A stretch of DNA of 39,774 nucleotides. Source: Gammaproteobacteria bacterium. Lineage in GTDB: Bacteria > Pseudomonadota > Gammaproteobacteria > Chromatiales > Chromatiaceae. Under the pieces are notes generated by a model. The model had not been told where the DNA came from and did no database searches. It saw only the letters and a program-made list of their open reading frames with translations. The first letter of the stretch is position 1. Every line of letters begins with the position of its first letter. A program made the translations under genes and the position numbers. This document shows positions 19,523-26,278 of this stretch, in pieces. The stretch spans positions 1 to 39,774 of the forward strand of contig JASJCU010000020.1 of NCBI GenBank assembly GCA_030065815.1. The letters run 5' to 3'.

Positions 19523-20464
19523 TCAGGCGCTGGCAGCGACCGGTGGATCGTCGGCGTCACCGGCGCGATCGATTCTGACCACCGCCTCGACCTCGTTGCC
19601 GACGCCATGGTAGACGATGTCGTCGAAGCTGATCATGCGCGACATCGCGATGCCGCGACCGTGGGTGTCGAAGGCCCGTGACGGGTCCATGTCGACGTAG
19701 CGGCGCCAGTCGAAGCCGCTGCCCTCGTCGACGATACGCACGCGGATCTCGTCGTCACCGCGCCGATAGCGCACCCGCACCCGCCTCGCGGCGTAGACCG
19801 GATCGGCGAGCCGCGCCTCGACCTCGGCCTCCCAGCGCTCGGCTGCGCGCAGCGACGTCTTCTCCGCGTAGCCGATGCCGAGATTACCGTGCTCGACGGC
19901 GTTGACGAGCAGCTCGGTGAGACCGATTACGACGCGCTTGGGGTCGGGAAAGGCATTGGCCAGCGTCGTCGCGACGTCGCGTGCCGAATCGAGTGTACTG
20001 AAGGTGAACACCGCCTCGTGCAGCAGGCCGAAGGTCCGGCTCGCGGCATCGCTGTCCTCGAGCGCGCGCAGGTAGCGCCGGCGATCGTCGACCGCGGTAC
20101 CGAGCACGCTGAGCAGCATGGCCTCGTCGAACGGCTTGGTCAGGTAATAGTACGCGCCGGCCTGCAGGCCCTCGAGGATCTGTTCCTTGGCCGCCAGCGC
20201 CGTCTGCAGGATCACCGGCACGCTCTGCAGCACCGGGTGGCGCTTGATCCGCTCGAGCACCTGCAGGCCGTCGAGCCCGGGCATCATGCGATCGAGGATC
20301 ACGACGTCGAAACGCGTAGCATCGGCATCGAGCCAGTCCCACGCCGACTGCCCGTCTTCGACCGCCTCGATCTCGTACCCTGTTCCCTGCAGGTACTCGA
20401 CCAGGATCTCGACGTTGAACGGCTCGTCGTCGGCGATCAGGATGCACGGCGTTTCTGCGGGCAT
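19523..20464 (-). CDS. Response regulator with C-terminal anti-sigma-type ATPase domain
   Basis: A 313-residue two-domain signalling protein. The REC domain (about 5-125) has acidic residues at 12-14 (ADDE), phospho-acceptor D58 (VVILDRMMPGLDG), T88 and K110 (LTKPFD). After a linker, a HATPase_c_2 domain of the RsbW/anti-sigma kind (about 150-300) has the N-box GLTELLVNAVEHGNLG, G1 VDEGSGFDW and G2 THGRGIAMSRMI. Such proteins are expected to act by binding or phosphorylating a partner, not DNA. It lies 39 bases after the histidine kinase gene on the same strand, so the pair is probably cognate. No STAS antagonist or sigma factor is nearby. Confidence 0.88.
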   Translation of the reverse strand: MPAETPCILIADDEPFNVEILVEYLQGTGYEIEAVEDGQSAWDWLDADATRFDVVILDRMMPGLDGLQVLERIKRHPVLQSVPVILQTALAAKEQILEGLQAGAYYYLTKPFDEAMLLSVLGTAVDDRRRYLRALEDSDAASRTFGLLHEAVFTFSTLDSARDVATTLANAFPDPKRVVIGLTELLVNAVEHGNLGIGYAEKTSLRAAERWEAEVEARLADPVYAARRVRVRYRRGDDEIRVRIVDEGSGFDWRRYVDMDPSRAFDTHGRGIAMSRMISFDDIVYHGVGNEVEAVVRIDRAGDADDPPVAASA

Positions 20465-20503
20465 GACGGCTCCGGTCGGCTGTATCCGATGCTAGCGGCA
20501 CCG

Positions 20504-21874
20504 CTACGCCGGGCTTGAACCCTGGACGGCGCCGGGTTGGCGCGGCAGCACGACCCGGAAACAGCTGCCGTGGTCGGCATTGTTGCGCGCGTCGATGCGG
20601 CCGCCATGCGCATTGACGATCTCGCGCGCGATCGCCAGGCCGAGCCCGGTGCCGCCGGTCTTGCGGTCGGTGCGCCGGCTCTGCACGAACTTGTCGAAGA
20701 CCGCTTCGAGCTGGTCGTCGGGGATCCCGGGACCCTGGTCGGAGACGCGGATCTCCACCGCCGCCTGGTCACCGCGCCCGTCGTGCACCGTCACGGCCGC
20801 CGTGCACACCGTGATCTCGCCCCGGTCCGGCGAGAACTTGATCGCGTTCGACAGCAGGTTGCGCACGACCTGGGCCATCTTGTCGTCATCGAACGCCAGC
20901 TGCCCGACGTCCTCCGCCGGACGGAAATCGATAGCGATCCCGCGCCGCTCAGCAAGCCCCTCGAACTCGTCGAGCACGCCGCGAATCGTCGCATGCAGGT
21001 CGCCGGGCCGGATCGCGTAGACCTCGCGGCCGGCCTCCGCCTTGGCCAGGTCGAGCAGGTCGTTGATCATGCCGAGCAGGCGGCCGCCGGCGCTGTGGAT
21101 GCGGTCGAAGTAATGTCCGAGCTTCGGCCGCTCGGCGCTGTCGAGCTTCTTCTGTCCGAACTCCGAGTAGCTCAGGATCGCGTGCATCGGCGTACGCAGT
21201 TCGTGCGACATGCTGGCGAGGAACTGCGACTTGGCGCGGTTGGCACGTTCCGCCTCTTCCTTGGCGACGCGCAGCTCGGCCGTCTGTTCGGCGACCAGCT
21301 GTTCGAGGTCCTCGCGGTGGCGGCGCAGTTCCTCGTCGATACGCTTGCGCTCGGTAACGTCGCGCAGTATGCACAAGAAGGCCTCGTAACCGTTGTCGGC
21401 GTCGACATCGGCGTCGCTGAAGTCGTCGAACAGCACGAGATCCTGTGACGAGATCTCCGCGACCGCGACCTCGAGCAATACCTTGCCGCCGTCGGCGCGC
21501 CGGCCGGTCAGCGGCTGCGCGTGCTGATCAGGCGTGCGGCGCACGTAGTCGAGCAGAAAGCCGGGCACGTTGTCGCGAAACGCCGCCGGCAGGTCGAACA
21601 ACTGGTTCGCCGGCTGGTGCAACACCTCGATCTCGGCGACGTCGAACACGCGTTCCGCAGCGCTGTTGAAGCTGCTCACGGTGCCGTCGTTCTCGAACTG
21701 GATGATCGCGTCGGTCGCGCGGTGTAGCAGCGACTGCATGCGCGTCTGCGTGCTGATCAGCTCGTGACTCGCGTGCGTCAGCAGTTCGACCTGAGCGCGC
21801 AACGCCGCGAGCTCGGCGAGCGTATCGTCGCCGGGCGCTGACTCGGACGGTTGTGCCGGATCGCTGGCGGCCAT
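20504..21874 (-). CDS. PAS-domain sensor histidine kinase
   Basis: A 456-residue soluble kinase with no membrane segment. Domains: short N-terminal helix (about 18-47), PAS (about 48-175, ATDAIIQFENDGTVSSFNSAAE up to ILRDVTERK), coiled coil (about 176-215), HisKA with phospho-acceptor H224 (SHELRTPMHAIL), and HATPase with N-box VVRNLLSNAIKF, G1 DQGPGIPDD and G2 TGGTGLGLAI. The ATG at 21874 precedes the conserved region; the frame is open much further upstream but there it runs antisense through fabA and shows no similarity. Its likely target is the REC-HATPase protein just downstream. Confidence 0.9.
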   Translation of the reverse strand: MAASDPAQPSESAPGDDTLAELAALRAQVELLTHASHELISTQTRMQSLLHRATDAIIQFENDGTVSSFNSAAERVFDVAEIEVLHQPANQLFDLPAAFRDNVPGFLLDYVRRTPDQHAQPLTGRRADGGKVLLEVAVAEISSQDLVLFDDFSDADVDADNGYEAFLCILRDVTERKRIDEELRRHREDLEQLVAEQTAELRVAKEEAERANRAKSQFLASMSHELRTPMHAILSYSEFGQKKLDSAERPKLGHYFDRIHSAGGRLLGMINDLLDLAKAEAGREVYAIRPGDLHATIRGVLDEFEGLAERRGIAIDFRPAEDVGQLAFDDDKMAQVVRNLLSNAIKFSPDRGEITVCTAAVTVHDGRGDQAAVEIRVSDQGPGIPDDQLEAVFDKFVQSRRTDRKTGGTGLGLAIAREIVNAHGGRIDARNNADHGSCFRVVLPRQPGAVQGSSPA

Positions 21875-21949
21875 CGGGTACGCGGCATCGGGTCCATTGC
21901 GGGCGTTACTCCACCGGTAGCGGCCGTCGCGGCGCGCCCTTGACCTCGG

Positions 21950-21993
21950 TTGACAACCCAGCCACGGGTCCGGAAACTCGCCCGCTTCGCGGG
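21950..21993 (+). promoter_or_regulatory. Possible fabA promoter with 5' hairpin
   Basis: In the 135-base gap between the kinase and fabA, the plus strand has a perfect TTGACA (21950-21955), then GAAACT 17 bases on (21973-21978), a weak -10. A small stem CCCGC-TTC-GCGGG (21981-21993) lies just before the GGAGG of fabA. I see no clear FabR-like or FadR-like operator. Confidence 0.35.
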
Positions 21994-22009
21994 TCGGAGG
22001 CACAGAGCC

Positions 22010-22525
22010 ATGGGAAGAGTTGACGCATTCGAGCGGGAAGACTTGTTGAAATGCGGCTACGGCGAGATGTTCGGGCCGGGCAACGCCCAGCTGCCTGTGC
22101 CGAACATGCTGATGATGGACCGCGTCACGCGCATTGCCGACAGCGGCGGCGCCCATGGCAAGGGCGAGATAGTCGCCGAGCTGGATATCCGGCCGGACCT
22201 GTGGTTCTTCTCCTGCCATTTTCCCGGCGATCCGGTGATGCCGGGCTGCCTCGGCCTCGATGCGATGTGGCAGTCGGTCGGCTTCTTTCTCGCCTGGCTC
22301 GGCAACCCGGGTCATGGCCGTGCGCTCGGCGTCGGCGAGGTCAAGTTCACCGGACAGGTGCTGCCGACCGCGGACAAGGTCACCTATCACCTCGACATGA
22401 AGCGCGTGATCACGCGCAAGCTGGTGCTCGGCATCGCCGACGGGCGCATGGAGGTCGACGGGCGCGAGATCTATACGGCCAAGGACCTGCGGGTCGGCCT
22501 GTTCACGTCGACCGAGGGCTTCTGA
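22010..22525 (+). CDS. fabA: 3-hydroxydecanoyl-[ACP] dehydratase/isomerase FabA
   Basis: FabA dehydrates 3-hydroxydecanoyl-ACP and isomerises the product to cis-3-decenoyl-ACP, the branch point to unsaturated fatty acids in gammaproteobacteria. The 171-residue protein is the expected size, with active-site H70 in [16 protein letters not shown] and D84 in GLDAMWQ, at the same numbering as E. coli. The ATG at 22010 has GGAGG nine bases upstream and gives the canonical beginning with [16 protein letters not shown]. FabB, its usual partner, is not adjacent; the following gene converges on fabA. Confidence 0.96.
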
Positions 22526-22537
22526 CGACCGGGCACG

Positions 22538-22560
22538 AAAAAGCCCGGCATTGCCGGGCT
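22538..22560 (-). terminator. Intrinsic terminator of the rubrerythrin operon
   Basis: On the minus strand the 8-bp stem AGCCCGGC / GCCGGGCT with a 3-base loop is followed directly by TTTTT (22542-22538). It lies about 29 bases after the DUF3501 stop and about 12 bases after the fabA stop. The plus strand has no T-run after the stem, so it mainly serves the minus-strand operon. Confidence 0.85.
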
Positions 22561-22588
22561 GTGCGGTGCTGAAGAGGTTGTCCGACGG

Positions 22589-23182
22589 TCAGTTCAGGTC
22601 TTCGGCCAGCGAATCGCGGATGTTCTGCGGGATCGGCTCGGCGGCGTGGGTATACGCCGGGTGATCGATACCGATACTGATCGCCGCGCCGTTCTTGACT
22701 GCCGCGGCCATCTCGGCCGTGAGTTCGAAGCGCATGAAGTGCACCGACGAGGTCTTGTCCTCGGTCTCGCGGTCGAGGTCCTCGTCGGAGATCGGCGTGA
22801 TGCGCGCGAAGTCGGCGACCTGGGCCCAGACGTGGCGCTCGATGCCGATCAGCTTGTGCAGCTGTGCCTTGCGCTCCTCCTCGTCAGGAATCTCGATCAT
22901 GAACGTCGCCTTCCAGTTACTGCCATCCGGGATCAGCGGGTTGTAGGCGTCGAGTTCTTCCTGGATGCCGGCCGCCTCAAAGATCCGCTCGGCGCGCAGC
23001 ATCTCCTGGATCTGGTAATGCATGGTCAGTGCGTCTTCGAAGTACAGCGTCGCATCCGGCCCGATCGGCAGCTGGCGGTTCTTCTTGTGCGCCATGACGC
23101 GGGCGCGAAACTCGGGCCGCACCTCGGCGTACTTCTCCAGGCTGAACAAGTCGTCGCGGGTCAGTTTGTTCACGGTTTCCAC
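22589..23182 (-). CDS. DUF3501 family protein
   Basis: A 197-residue soluble protein of the DUF3501 family, which is typically found beside rubrerythrin and a heterodisulfide-reductase-like Fe-S protein. Visible conserved stretches are LTRDDLFSLEKYAEVRPEFR, LYFEDALTMHYQIQEMLRAE and IGIDHPAYTH. It has no cysteine motif or membrane segment. The start is the GTG at 23182 with AAGGAG six bases upstream; a second GTG three codons in is less well spaced. Last gene of the operon, followed by a strong terminator. Role unknown; co-transcription suggests peroxide or iron handling (inference). Confidence 0.9.
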   Translation of the reverse strand: METVNKLTRDDLFSLEKYAEVRPEFRARVMAHKKNRQLPIGPDATLYFEDALTMHYQIQEMLRAERIFEAAGIQEELDAYNPLIPDGSNWKATFMIEIPDEEERKAQLHKLIGIERHVWAQVADFARITPISDEDLDRETEDKTSSVHFMRFELTAEMAAAVKNGAAISIGIDHPAYTHAAEPIPQNIRDSLAEDLN

Positions 23183-23205
23183 CTCAATCTCCTTCTACGT
23201 GCCGA

Positions 23206-24534
23206 TCAGATGCCGTAGGCGATACGCAGCAGCGTGATCGGGTGTTTGGGTTCCGACCCGTCATCCAGGCCGTTCGAAATCTGGTGCCCGGCCATCACGC
23301 AGTCGCTGCTGTAGTGGTCGGGACTGTTTTGCTTGACCTTGTTGACAACCGGTCGCGCTATCTTCATTGACAGCTCGTGCGACTCTTTCTTCACGGCGTA
23401 GGTGCCGTCGTGACCAGAACAGCGCTCGATCAGCTCGATCTCGGTGCCCGGCACCAGTTCCAACGCCTCGCGCGTCTTCGGACCGATCCGCTGTACGCGC
23501 TGGTGACACGCGGCGTGGTACGCGACCTTGCCCAGCGGTTGCTGGAAGTCGGTGCTGAGCTTGCCGTACTTGTGCCGCAGCATTAGGTACTCGAACGGGT
23601 CGTACATCGCGTCGCGCACCTTGGCGACGTCGGCGTCATCGGGAAACATCAACGGCAGTTCCTGTTTGAACATCAGCACACACGACGGCACCGGCGCGAC
23701 GATGTCCCAGCCGTCGTCGACCAGCTGCGCCAGCATCGGGATGTTGACGTCCTTGGCCGCGGCGACCGCATCGAGGTCGCCGAGCTCGAGCTTCGGCATA
23801 CCGCAGCACTTCTCCTTGTCGGCCATGGTCACCGGGATGCCGTTGTGGCGGAACACCGCGACCAGGTCTTCGCCGCTCTGCGGGTCGTTGCGGTTGCCGT
23901 AGCAGGTCGCGAACAGCGCGACCTTGCCGGTCGTCGGGCCGGCGGCCTCGGCATTCTCACCGTTGTCGCGCGCCACGCGGCTGCGTAGCGGCTTGCTGTA
24001 GAACTCCGGCAGCTTGGCGTCCTTGTGCACGCCGAGACCGTCTTCGAGGATGCCGCGGAACGTCGCGTTCTTGTTCAGCGCGTTGACGACGCCGCTGACG
24101 ACCGGGATGCCGGCGAGCGTTCCGAGGCGATCGGTATTGGTCAGGGTCTTGTCACGGAACGACGCGCCCTGGTTGCGGTACTTGACCGCCTTTGCCTGCA
24201 GCATCAGGTGCGGAAAGTCGACGTTCCACTCGTGTGGCGGCACGTAGGGGCACTTGGTCAGGAAGCACAGGTCGCAGAGATAGCACTGGTCGACGACCTT
24301 CCAGTAGTCGGTCTTGGCGACGCCGTCGACCTCCATCGTGTCGGACTCGTCGACGAGGTCGAACAGCACCGGGAAGCTCTGGCACAGGCTGACGCAGCGG
24401 CGGCAACCGTGACAGATATCGAACACCCGCTCCATCTCGGACAGCAGCTTGCCTTCGTCGTAGAAATCGGGGCTCTTCCAGTCCAGGGCATGCCGTGTGG
24501 GTGCCTCGAGGCTGCCTTCGCGTGCGCCGGCCAT
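23206..24534 (-). CDS. Heterodisulfide-reductase/GlpC-like Fe-S oxidoreductase
   Basis: A 442-residue electron-transfer protein. The N-terminal dicluster ferredoxin part has C41-C44-C47-C51 (CHGCRRCVSLC) and C84-C87-C90-C95 (CYLCDLCFLTKCP), enough for two [4Fe-4S] clusters. The C-terminal half carries two CCG-type repeats: one with ATCYGN and EKCCGMPKLE, the other with HAACHQ and ERCSGHDGTY, so the second repeat has CSG in place of CCG. This is the layout of GlpC/HdrD-type quinone- or thiol-linked subunits. Located between rubrerythrin and DUF3501 in one operon, it may feed electrons to rubrerythrin; that is inference. No membrane segment is obvious. Confidence 0.9.
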   Translation of the reverse strand: MAGAREGSLEAPTRHALDWKSPDFYDEGKLLSEMERVFDICHGCRRCVSLCQSFPVLFDLVDESDTMEVDGVAKTDYWKVVDQCYLCDLCFLTKCPYVPPHEWNVDFPHLMLQAKAVKYRNQGASFRDKTLTNTDRLGTLAGIPVVSGVVNALNKNATFRGILEDGLGVHKDAKLPEFYSKPLRSRVARDNGENAEAAGPTTGKVALFATCYGNRNDPQSGEDLVAVFRHNGIPVTMADKEKCCGMPKLELGDLDAVAAAKDVNIPMLAQLVDDGWDIVAPVPSCVLMFKQELPLMFPDDADVAKVRDAMYDPFEYLMLRHKYGKLSTDFQQPLGKVAYHAACHQRVQRIGPKTREALELVPGTEIELIERCSGHDGTYAVKKESHELSMKIARPVVNKVKQNSPDHYSSDCVMAGHQISNGLDDGSEPKHPITLLRIAYGI

Positions 24535-24625
24535 AGCCTGTATTCCTCTGCGTGGTTCTGTGTTCTCAGCTGGGCATCAGCCTGCGGGTAAGGGGAGACC
24601 GCTGCGGCCTCCCCGGCACCCGCGG

Positions 24626-25045
24626 TCAGTCGTCGAGCTGGTCCAGCGCCTTTTGGAAGCGGTTGGCGTGCGAACGCTCGGCCTTGGCCAGCGTCTCGAA
24701 CCAGTCGGCGATCTCGTCGTGACCCTCGTCACGCGCGGTCTTGGCCATGCCCGGGTACATGTCGGTGTACTCGTGGGTCTCGCCGGCGATCGCGGTCTTC
24801 AGGTTGTCCGAGGTGCCGCCAAACGGCAGGCCGGTCGCGGGATCGCCGCACTGCTCGAGGTACTCGAGATGGCCATGCGCATGGCCGGTCTCGCCCTCTG
24901 CGGTCGAACGGAACACCGCGGCGACGTCGTTGTAGCCCTCGACGTCGGCCTTGGCGGCGAAGTACAGGTAACGGCGGTTGGCCTGCGACTCGCCGGCGAA
25001 CGCGGCCTTGAGGTTGTCTTCGGTCTTGGAGCCTTTCAGGGACAT
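24626..25045 (-). CDS. Rubrerythrin without rubredoxin domain
   Basis: A diiron peroxidase of 139 residues. Diiron ligands are visible as E19 ([10 protein letters not shown]), E52 and H55 (EGETGHA), E89 and E92 ([12 protein letters not shown]), and E123 and H126 (AERSHANRF), the full rubrerythrin set. The C-terminal rubredoxin domain of classical rubrerythrin is missing, so electrons must come from another protein. ATG at 25045 with GGAGG eight bases upstream. It is first in an operon with the Fe-S oxidoreductase (91 bases on) and DUF3501, behind a probable OxyR-controlled promoter. Peroxide reduction in the cytoplasm is the expected role. Confidence 0.95.
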
Positions 25046-25104: not shown

Positions 25105-25171
25105 ACTATAGTCGGCAGCGTCAGCCTCATGAAATTGATTCTGGCAATTCACCCGATAGCGGCCGACTATC
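25105..25171 (-). promoter_or_regulatory. Rubrerythrin promoter with OxyR-type operator
   Basis: 25155-25171 reads GATAG-N7-CTATC, the outer bases of the OxyR half-palindrome. Five bases away, 25133-25149 reads AATTG-N7-CAATT, a second inverted repeat with the same 17-base geometry. The 17-5-17 layout equals that of tetrameric OxyR sites. On the minus strand TATAGT (25110-25105) is a good -10, and 17 bases upstream is TTCATG (25133-25128), a poor -35 touching the operator, as expected for an activator-dependent promoter. oxyR itself is the next gene upstream (25352-26278). The rest of the 306-base gap shows only one further 9-base inverted repeat (25134-25142 with 25193-25201). Confidence 0.7.
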
Positions 25172-25351: not shown

Positions 25352-26278
25352 TCAGTGGATAGCCTCGATGCACGACATCTCGCACGCCAGTACCGCGTCG
25401 CGCAGCGCGCCGATCGCGTCGGGCCGCGGAAAGCTCTTGCGCCAGGCCAGCGCGACCACCCGCGATGGCGCGTCGCCATCGAAGCGGCGGATACGCAGCA
25501 GGCGCTCGGCGAAGCGCTCGGCGCCAGCCGCCGAGCACGGCAGTATGGTCACGCCGAGGCCGCTCGCGACCATGTAGCGGATCGTCTCCAGTGACCCGCC
25601 CTCCAGGGTCTGCGCCGGCGACCCCTCGCTGGCACTGCGGCGCATGCAATCCGGGCACACCTCGAGCACCTGGTCGCGAAAGCAGTGCCCGGCGCCGAGC
25701 AGCAGCACGTCCTCGTGCTTCAGATCGGCGACCTCGAACGCCGCCCGCTGGTTGAGCGGATGGCTGCTCGGCAGCAGCAGCACGAACGGTTCACGGTACA
25801 GCGGCAGGGTCTGCACACCGGGTTCGTCGAACGGCAGCGAGATCACGATGACGTCGAGATCGCCGCGCTTGAGCTTCTCGGCCAGGGTCGCCGTGTAGTT
25901 CTCCTCGATCACGAGCGGCATCTTCGGCGCGCGCCCAGCCAGTTCGGGAATCAAGTGCGGCAGCAGGTAGGGGCCGATCGTGTAGATCGCGCCGAGGCGC
26001 AGCGGCCCGTCGAGCTGGTCCTGGCCCTGCCTGGCCAGCTGGCGGATACTGCCGGCCTCCTCGAGTACGCGTTGCGCCTGGGTCACGATCTGCTCGCCGA
26101 TCGGGGTCACGCTGACGTCACCCTTGCGTCGCTCGAACAGGCTGACACCGAGCTCATCCTCGAGCTTCTTGACCGCGACACTGAGCGTCGGCTGGCTGAT
26201 GAAACACGCCTCGGCGGCCCGTCCGAAATGCCGTTCGCGCGCAACCGCAACGATGTACCGCAACTCATTGAGGGTCAT
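25352..26278 (-). CDS. oxyR: Hydrogen peroxide-sensing regulator OxyR
   Basis: OxyR is a LysR-family activator switched on by disulfide formation. The 308-residue protein has the winged helix-turn-helix at the N-terminus (MTLNELRYIVAVARERHFGR, then AEACFISQPTLSVAVKKLE) and a LysR substrate domain with the sensor loop GHCFRDQVLEVC, placing the redox cysteines at 199 and 208 exactly as in E. coli. The ATG at 26278 is the family start; the open frame further upstream is not conserved. It has no obvious ribosome binding site. Divergent from cpdA; its likely target promoter is that of rubrerythrin just downstream. Confidence 0.95.
   Translation of the reverse strand: MTLNELRYIVAVARERHFGRAAEACFISQPTLSVAVKKLEDELGVSLFERRKGDVSVTPIGEQIVTQAQRVLEEAGSIRQLARQGQDQLDGPLRLGAIYTIGPYLLPHLIPELAGRAPKMPLVIEENYTATLAEKLKRGDLDVIVISLPFDEPGVQTLPLYREPFVLLLPSSHPLNQRAAFEVADLKHEDVLLLGAGHCFRDQVLEVCPDCMRRSASEGSPAQTLEGGSLETIRYMVASGLGVTILPCSAAGAERFAERLLRIRRFDGDAPSRVVALAWRKSFPRPDAIGALRDAVLACEMSCIEAIH

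Follow-up and report, generated by a model that had tools for sequence, protein, structure and literature searches.

The stretch of DNA analysed here, which we refer to as the window, comprises 39,774 nucleotides (positions 1 to 39,774) of contig JASJCU010000020.1 from a gammaproteobacterium of the Chromatiaceae. On its minus strand, at 22538-25045, the window carries a locus of three genes (the trio) encoding a rubredoxin-free rubrerythrin (rbr), an Fe-S protein of the type called RFO and a protein of the family DUF3501. The trio itself is already described: Cardenas et al. (2016; PMC5114695) reported aerobic-type rubrerythrin together with DUF3501 and RFO, and gave the latter its name. What is added here is the regulation, in the form of OxyR-type versus Irr-type boxes upstream of rbr, and different bacteria may thereby place the same trio under two unrelated stress-sensing regulators. 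The features of the locus in the window are as follows.

25352-26278, minus strand: oxyR, a LysR-type peroxide regulator of 308 amino acids with its ATG at 26278 and with C199 and C208 (NCBIfam, sequence).
25135-25170, minus strand: candidate OxyR box ATAG-N7-CTAT-N7-ATTG-N7-TCAA, -125 to -90 relative to the start of rbr.
25105-25110, minus strand: TATAGT, by eye a possible -10 element, on the downstream side of the OxyR box.
24626-25045, minus strand: rbr, an aerobic-type rubrerythrin of 139 amino acids, diiron domain only, rubredoxin-free (Pfam, structure relatives, alignment).
23206-24534, minus strand: RFO, a GlpC/EtfD-like Fe-S protein (Pfam, NCBIfam, alignment, predicted fold).
22589-23182, minus strand: DUF3501 (PF12007), 197 amino acids, GTG start, with the solved relative 3fjv (Pfam, predicted fold).
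22542-22560, minus strand: intrinsic-terminator-like hairpin of 8 pairs followed by a T-run, between DUF3501 and the convergent fabA.

The gaps between the genes are 306 nucleotides for oxyR-rbr, 91 for rbr-RFO and 23 for RFO-DUF3501, and the common strand and the last two gaps make a single rbr-RFO-DUF3501 transcript plausible. A promoter scan of the region gave no consensus sigma-70 site. The original prediction, made from the letters of the DNA before this analysis, had closed the transcript with a strong terminator. The hairpin and its T-run are indeed present (22560-22542, 7 of the 8 pairs G-C), but terminator-like sites are no more frequent in the region than in shuffled sequences (2 observed, 2.5 expected), and the case for reading the hairpin as a terminator is that it lies 28 nucleotides past the DUF3501 stop codon, not that such sites are rare.

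The conservation of the trio was analysed in two sets of loci. The class set derives from 276 sampled genomes of the class, from which 120 loci were fetched with one row per genome; six of the 126 genomes with DUF3501 lie outside the fetched loci (G022, G076 and G174 with split matches, G059 and G131 with a contig end too near, and G242). The first set consists of 140 loci and includes some genomes in duplicate (L048 and L099 have an identical box and flank). All three genes were found in 122 of the 276 class genomes and none of them in 145, these totals being combined by hand from separate match tables for DUF3501, RFO and rbr; DUF3501 is present in 126 genomes and RFO in 128. Among the 126 genomes with DUF3501, all three genes occur in 122, RFO in 125, and a rubrerythrin with 77% or more identity to that of the window in 123. 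Conservation of the trio is far beyond chance, and the co-occurrence check suggested with the original prediction upholds its statement that the gene set is conserved in many bacteria. A contig end coincides with the missing rbr of G160, G171 and G230; G099, G188 and G275 contain RFO but no DUF3501; and G030 and G263 have the rubrerythrin alone, which in G263 is close to the start of a contig. The three genes follow one another on one strand as rbr-RFO-DUF3501 in 113 of the 120 class loci and in 121 of the 140 loci of the first set; the other 19 of the latter, counted irrespective of contig ends, comprise 13 with RFO and DUF3501 only, five with DUF3501 only and one with rbr and DUF3501. L308 has RFO on another contig of the genome, as does L150, to which we return below. 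In published work, the triple co-occurrence was found in 185 of 4461 genomes (PMC5114695), the trio was reported in Acidihalobacter (PMC7760498), and the Andalucia paper (PMC7050145) treats it as a system of three components for which targeting to mitochondria is predicted.

The window rubrerythrin matches the Pfam model Rubrerythrin with 107.8 bits, and the protein stops after the diiron domain. Its nearest solved relatives are Burkholderia rubrerythrin 9onm/4di0 (about 2e-75) and sulerythrin 1j30 (2e-51). The residues E19, E52, H55, E89, E92, E123 and H126, which we take to be the diiron ligands, are each present in no fewer than 122 of 123 aligned sequences, and a rubredoxin-like CxxC was found in 0 of the 123, in agreement with the earlier statement that all diiron ligands are present and the rubredoxin domain is not. 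The protein is accordingly without the CxxC...CxxC domain of the classical, rubredoxin-fused rubrerythrins, and it belongs to the aerobic type (sulerythrin/Burkholderia group, without rubredoxin domain) as defined in PMC5114695.

In RFO, Pfam detected a single CCG stretch (55.6 bits) and Fer4_8 at 20.4 bits, under the cut-off of 27. The best NCBIfam model is GlpC PRK11168 with 232.4 bits, below the cut-off of 278, and the gene is flanked by rbr and DUF3501 instead of the glpA/glpB partners of GlpC; with its CCG domain and this best model, the protein is a COG0247-type Fe-S oxidoreductase close to GlpC, adjoining the other two genes. Two [4Fe-4S] motifs and two CCG repeats had been predicted for it. 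The former are the ferredoxin-type motifs C41/44/47/51 and C84/87/90/95, which are kept in 128 of 128 sequences, as are H42, H101, C211, C243, C244, C285, C343, H344, C372, H375 and C412. The latter are covered by the fold of the predicted structure (pLDDT, the predicted local distance difference test score, 93.5), which spans both CCG domains, but only CCG1, with four Cys as in E. coli GlpC, is near canonical. CCG2 reads C...CxGH...C, that is, three Cys and the invariant H375 (128/128), compared with C...CC...CxxC in GlpC; the second Cys of CC and that of CxxC are lost in all 128. The model aligns with EtfD over residues 4-442 (Z 21.4, 365 residues aligned, 3.7 Å), and its CCG part with LutA (Z 23.9) and HdrB (Z 19.8). 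In EtfD a His completes one cluster, which is read as non-catalytic, the other cluster has a Thr in the position of a Cys, an adaptation to aerobic conditions has been suggested, and the disulfide chemistry of CCG enzymes has been tied to noncubane clusters with bridging Cys (PMC13083937). Neither CCG1 nor CCG2 of RFO has the five-Cys noncubane motif of heterodisulfide reductase (128/128). Because CCG2 is remodelled to three Cys and an invariant His, disulfide-reductase chemistry looks unlikely in RFO, and by analogy with EtfD an electron wire is the more likely role.

The predicted DUF3501 gene is confirmed by a Pfam match of 255.2 bits (cut-off 25) and lies in the same locus as the rubrerythrin. 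The window protein has zero Cys. In 199 DUF3501 sequences, none of the columns conserved at the level of 98% is a Cys; they include H148 (the sole His), Y18, R22, R36, E49, Q57, E60, E65, Y80 and others. The lack of Cys in the window protein and among these columns speaks against a redox function through Cys ligands, with room left for a scaffold or metal-loading role; it is compatible with the predicted function as an assembly or docking factor. The DUF3501 model (pLDDT 90.3) matches 3fjv with Z 26.5. Beyond 3fjv nothing exceeded Z 7.0, and the matches were mostly beta-sandwich domains, which may share no more than a common arrangement, so that we drew no function from the fold; known metal-site folds were not among the listed matches, to which we give no weight. 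A fusion of RFO with DUF3501 has been reported for Nitrosomonas (PMC5114695). In the first set (135 RFO and 140 DUF3501 matches) only L064 was flagged, and it was not counted, since its DUF3501 match starts at the RFO stop codon; long open frames at DUF3501 matches in class genomes were not accepted as fusions either.

The upstream oxyR gene and the box had no place in the original prediction. The candidate box at 25170-25135 matches 14 of the 16 positions of the OxyR consensus. In the 3.89-Mb genome of the window, ATAG-N7-CTAT-N7-ATTG with at most one mismatch has one match, the rbr box itself, which is exact; the reversed control has 2. The upstream LysR-type protein has OxyR PRK11151 as its best NCBIfam model (228.1 bits, below the cut-off of 329), and its C199 and C208, in the context HCFRDQVLEVC, correspond to the redox pair of OxyR (PMC2225504). 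An OxyR with both redox cysteines is thus encoded beside a matching box, from which we infer that OxyR binds and activates here and that the window trio is the OxyR-linked form of a peroxide-defence module.

For the comparison with relatives, rbr upstream regions shorter than 150 nucleotides were dropped, which left 123 regions in the first set (window included) and 114 of 120 in the class set. The exact motif ATAG-N7-CTAT was found in 24 of the 123 regions and in 5 of 1230 shuffled ones. Among the 100 regions without this motif in the last 220 nucleotides, 74 contain the exact palindrome TTAGA-N5-TCTAA, which occurred 0 times in ten shuffled sets. Both motifs stand within 250 nucleotides in only 1 of the 123 regions, and elsewhere in the same loci each has 5 sites in a total of 1.22 Mb. 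The palindrome resembles in shape an Irr box, an Irr-bound site of Rhodobacter reading TTAGAAATATTCTAGA (PMC6956336). An Irr-like Fur-family paralogue, for which IrrA is the best NCBIfam model in 6 of 6 proteins scanned (120-137 bits, below the cut-off of 150), is present at E 1e-30 in 114 of the 276 class genomes, together with DUF3501 in 90 of them, and adjoins the trio in 7 of the 120 fetched loci (L076, L083, L085, L088, L265, L279 and L304). Among the 114 class genomes with a readable rbr upstream region, 80 have an Irr-type box (73 with the Irr-like gene) and 11 an OxyR-type box (one with the Irr-like gene), and seven of these 11 have an oxyR match in the fetched locus.

Box type and Irr-like gene are associated with a Fisher p of 3e-8, which ignores kinship. 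On a tree of RFO and DUF3501, the contrast of Irr with OxyR boxes gave 2 well-supported independent pairs (same way 1.8, opposite 0.0), that of the Irr box with all others gave 6 (same way 3.6, opposite 0.1, no difference 2.3, median p 0.125), and a smaller set gave 1 independent pair for the box-gene link. So few independent pairs do not separate the link from shared descent. A parsimony count on quick trees with incomplete support puts the changes of box type at a minimum of 7 (90 labelled rows) or 11 (a different row set), and these trees do not tell in which direction the changes went. Several observations speak against control of the trio by Irr. Among the 276 genomes the Irr-like gene occurs without DUF3501 in 24 and DUF3501 without the Irr-like gene in 36; 23 of the 114 readable genomes have neither motif, nine of them with the Irr-like gene; 7 of the 80 genomes with an Irr-type box are without the gene at E 1e-30, although in G005 a weaker match adjoins the trio; and G218 combines an OxyR box with an Irr-like gene. 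Moreover, predicted Irr boxes can be idle, as two other predicted Rhodobacter sites were unbound in vitro (PMC6956336).

A search of 18 hand-chosen genomes for the strict form TTTAGA-N5-TCTAAA found 15 sites distributed over 11 genomes, and 10 of the sites lie at rbr; with the reversed control, 3 of the 18 genomes showed one site each. In nine of the 11 genomes the strict site is the only one, and in eight of these nine it stands at rbr. The only site of G105 and one of the four in G252 precede genes of the CCP_MauG family (di-haem cytochrome c peroxidases), and G115 and G036, which have looser Irr-type boxes, have no strict site in the genome. The five sites away from rbr are those of L179 and L182 (near 1501-1517 in each, the two before CCP_MauG genes), of L183 (before a DAHP-synthase-like gene, by eye), and of L173 and L184. 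This recalls Rhodobacter sphaeroides, where Irr binds predicted boxes at ccpA and at mbfA, a rubrerythrin-like gene; its affinity for the mbfA promoter is low, and ccpA is down-regulated by peroxide (PMC3413700), two findings that also count against control by Irr. The Irr of Bradyrhizobium is degraded upon exposure to hydrogen peroxide (PMC4902296), and Irr has been described, few exceptions aside, as confined to alphaproteobacteria (review PMC7762939).

In the first set, which has some genomes twice, 22 of 126 loci contain a fourth, EncFtn-like gene, inserted on the same strand between RFO and DUF3501 (L041, L049, L060, L066, L067, L073, L078, L079, L093, L163 and 12 others). The one copy of the 22 that was scanned matches PF22277 and TIGR04535, and the others cluster with it by BLAST. 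Among 12 genomes checked, 8 have the RFO-EncFtn-DUF3501 arrangement, and in 6 of these 8 there is no match to encapsulin (PF04454); in G012 and G218 the encapsulin stands beside another EncFtn copy, not the one in the operon. The operon copies have 93-107 amino acids (139 from the first ATG in L073) and do not have the C-terminal extension, presumably a targeting tail, that is seen in the encapsulin-linked copy of L321. In the genome of the window an EncFtn is encoded on another contig, and encapsulin gave no match. On the sequence evidence the chances seem to us evenly balanced that a dedicated Irr-like regulator has the trio as its chief target in most carriers of the class, that the window lineage is among several using OxyR instead, and that the same module, set on two unrelated peroxide/iron sensors and at times accompanied by encapsulin-free EncFtn and cytochrome c peroxidase, forms a peroxide-plus-iron detoxification unit.

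As a whole, the locus is probably best explained as an OxyR-activated peroxide defence in which RFO feeds the rubrerythrin. Peroxide would oxidise OxyR, which would act at the -125 box and activate rbr-RFO-DUF3501; the diiron site of the rubrerythrin would reduce hydrogen peroxide and probably organic peroxides too; RFO would serve as an electron wire that takes over from the absent rubredoxin domain, its two [4Fe-4S] clusters and its CCG clusters leading to the rubrerythrin; and DUF3501, as a partner without Cys-bound cofactor, would hold RFO and rubrerythrin together or aid metal loading. Gene order, co-occurrence, the neighbouring oxyR, the enrichment of the box, the Irr-like box that other lineages have in its stead and the EtfD-like fold of RFO support this explanation, as do the activity and the mutant of ferriperoxin, a rubrerythrin of Hydrogenobacter thermophilus that reduces hydrogen peroxide and organic peroxides with NADPH and ferredoxin:NADP reductase (FNR) and whose mutant is unable to grow aerobically (PMC3317640). 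That the Fe-S protein donates electrons to the rubrerythrin is plausible and was proposed in PMC5114695, where RFO was suggested to compensate for the lost rubredoxin domain. The original prediction had regarded the biochemistry as not established, which still holds for the electron transfer and the role of DUF3501; the trio and the idea of rubredoxin replacement have been in print since 2016.

A number of points weigh against an RFO-fed, OxyR-activated module. RFO may not be obligatory, because G057 (L274) has rbr and DUF3501 with no RFO at E 1e-40, and an rbr upstream region that fits neither the OxyR nor the Irr motif; because L150 has RFO on another contig of its genome, away from rbr and DUF3501; because Thermoproteales have rbr and DUF3501 but no RFO (PMC5114695); and because ferriperoxin is active in vitro with FNR and NADPH, without RFO (PMC3317640). 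An electron donor for RFO was not found; as regards quinol, which the original prediction had named as a possible source, the neighbouring genes read (oxyR, rbr, DUF3501 and fabA) include no flavoprotein. The uniqueness of the OxyR box in its genome is also weak, given the two matches of the reversed control.

The ferriperoxin reaction and the RFO-less cases of G057 and Thermoproteales are at the same time what speaks for a different division of labour, in which a general ferredoxin:NADP reductase or ferredoxin feeds the rubrerythrin, while RFO and DUF3501 mature, repair or protect its diiron site; the absence of a Cys column kept in 98% of the DUF3501 sequences fits it as well. We nevertheless consider it unlikely, as the conserved cluster motifs of RFO and its electron-wire fold seem to exceed the needs of a repair factor, and as RFO accompanies DUF3501 in all but one of the 126 genomes. 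It is less probable still that the operon mainly handles iron, with the rubrerythrin and its partners acting as a ferroxidase or iron buffer and peroxide serving as the oxidant. The Irr-like box, that of an iron/haem regulator, in most relatives (80/114) and the EncFtn-like insertions would agree with such a role, as would a Pelagibacter rubrerythrin transcript (subfamily unchecked) that is up 1.57-fold under iron limitation (PMC2864753), but the window copy is linked to OxyR, the EncFtn of its own genome lies on another contig, and the published relative is a peroxidase (PMC3317640). Finally, the original prediction had allowed for thiols as the electron source. A thiol/disulfide reductase like heterodisulfide reductase, driving the rubrerythrin from low-molecular-weight thiols, is suggested by the fold that the CCG domains share with HdrB, yet we regard it as very improbable: CCG1 has four Cys and not five, CCG2 has lost two of its own, disulfide chemistry has been tied to the bridging-Cys noncubane clusters, and the His-completed cluster of EtfD is described as non-catalytic (PMC13083937).

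DUF3501 occurs in 126 of the 276 class genomes, nearly half, and the trio is predicted in some mitochondria (PMC7050145). If the two unrelated types of regulator do act on one operon, they argue for a peroxide role and provide ready reporters, and an Irr-like regulator in the class, with no more than one strict site in a number of its genomes, would, if real, offer a simple system in which to study Irr. The conserved C285, C372, H375 and C412 of RFO are informative positions for point mutants.

Beyond the trio, the window contains at 19523-22390 a response-regulator-like open reading frame (by eye) and a PAS/histidine-kinase open reading frame; a kinase frame resembling the latter follows the trio in L092 (by eye). 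In 47 loci inspected upstream of rbr, an ispA-like gene is often divergent from the trio, with dxs-like and short xseB-like frames nearby (names by eye).

Among the matches listed from the open-licence literature there was nothing on an Irr-like site at the trio, the nearest being the oxyR neighbourhood of Sideroxydans and Irr/mbfA/ccpA of Rhodobacter. The system of PMC5114695 has the same three families, their co-localisation and the rubredoxin-free rubrerythrin of the Burkholderia/sulerythrin group; its gene set is identical, and the difference is in regulation, as OxyR has 0 occurrences and an Irr-like box does not appear in the text available from that source. Sideroxydans lithotrophicus has oxyR clustered with DUF3501/COG0247/RBR (PMC7852563), as in the window, whereas dps is among the clustered genes there and a binding site is undescribed in the part of that report concerned. 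Ferriperoxin is likewise a rubredoxin-free rubrerythrin, but its RFO gene is not adjacent (PMC5114695) and its donor in vitro was FNR with NADPH. With GlpC and the EtfD/HdrB family (COG0247), RFO shares the two ferredoxin-type motifs and two CCG domains, with the whole-length fold match to EtfD; it differs from GlpC in having H375 in CCG2 instead of CC...CxxC and in its gene neighbours. Compared with the R. sphaeroides Irr targets mbfA and ccpA, Irr-type boxes stand in relatives of the window at rbr and at two CCP_MauG genes, whereas mbfA is a membrane-bound ferritin and not this trio, and in the window an OxyR box takes the place of the Irr-type box.

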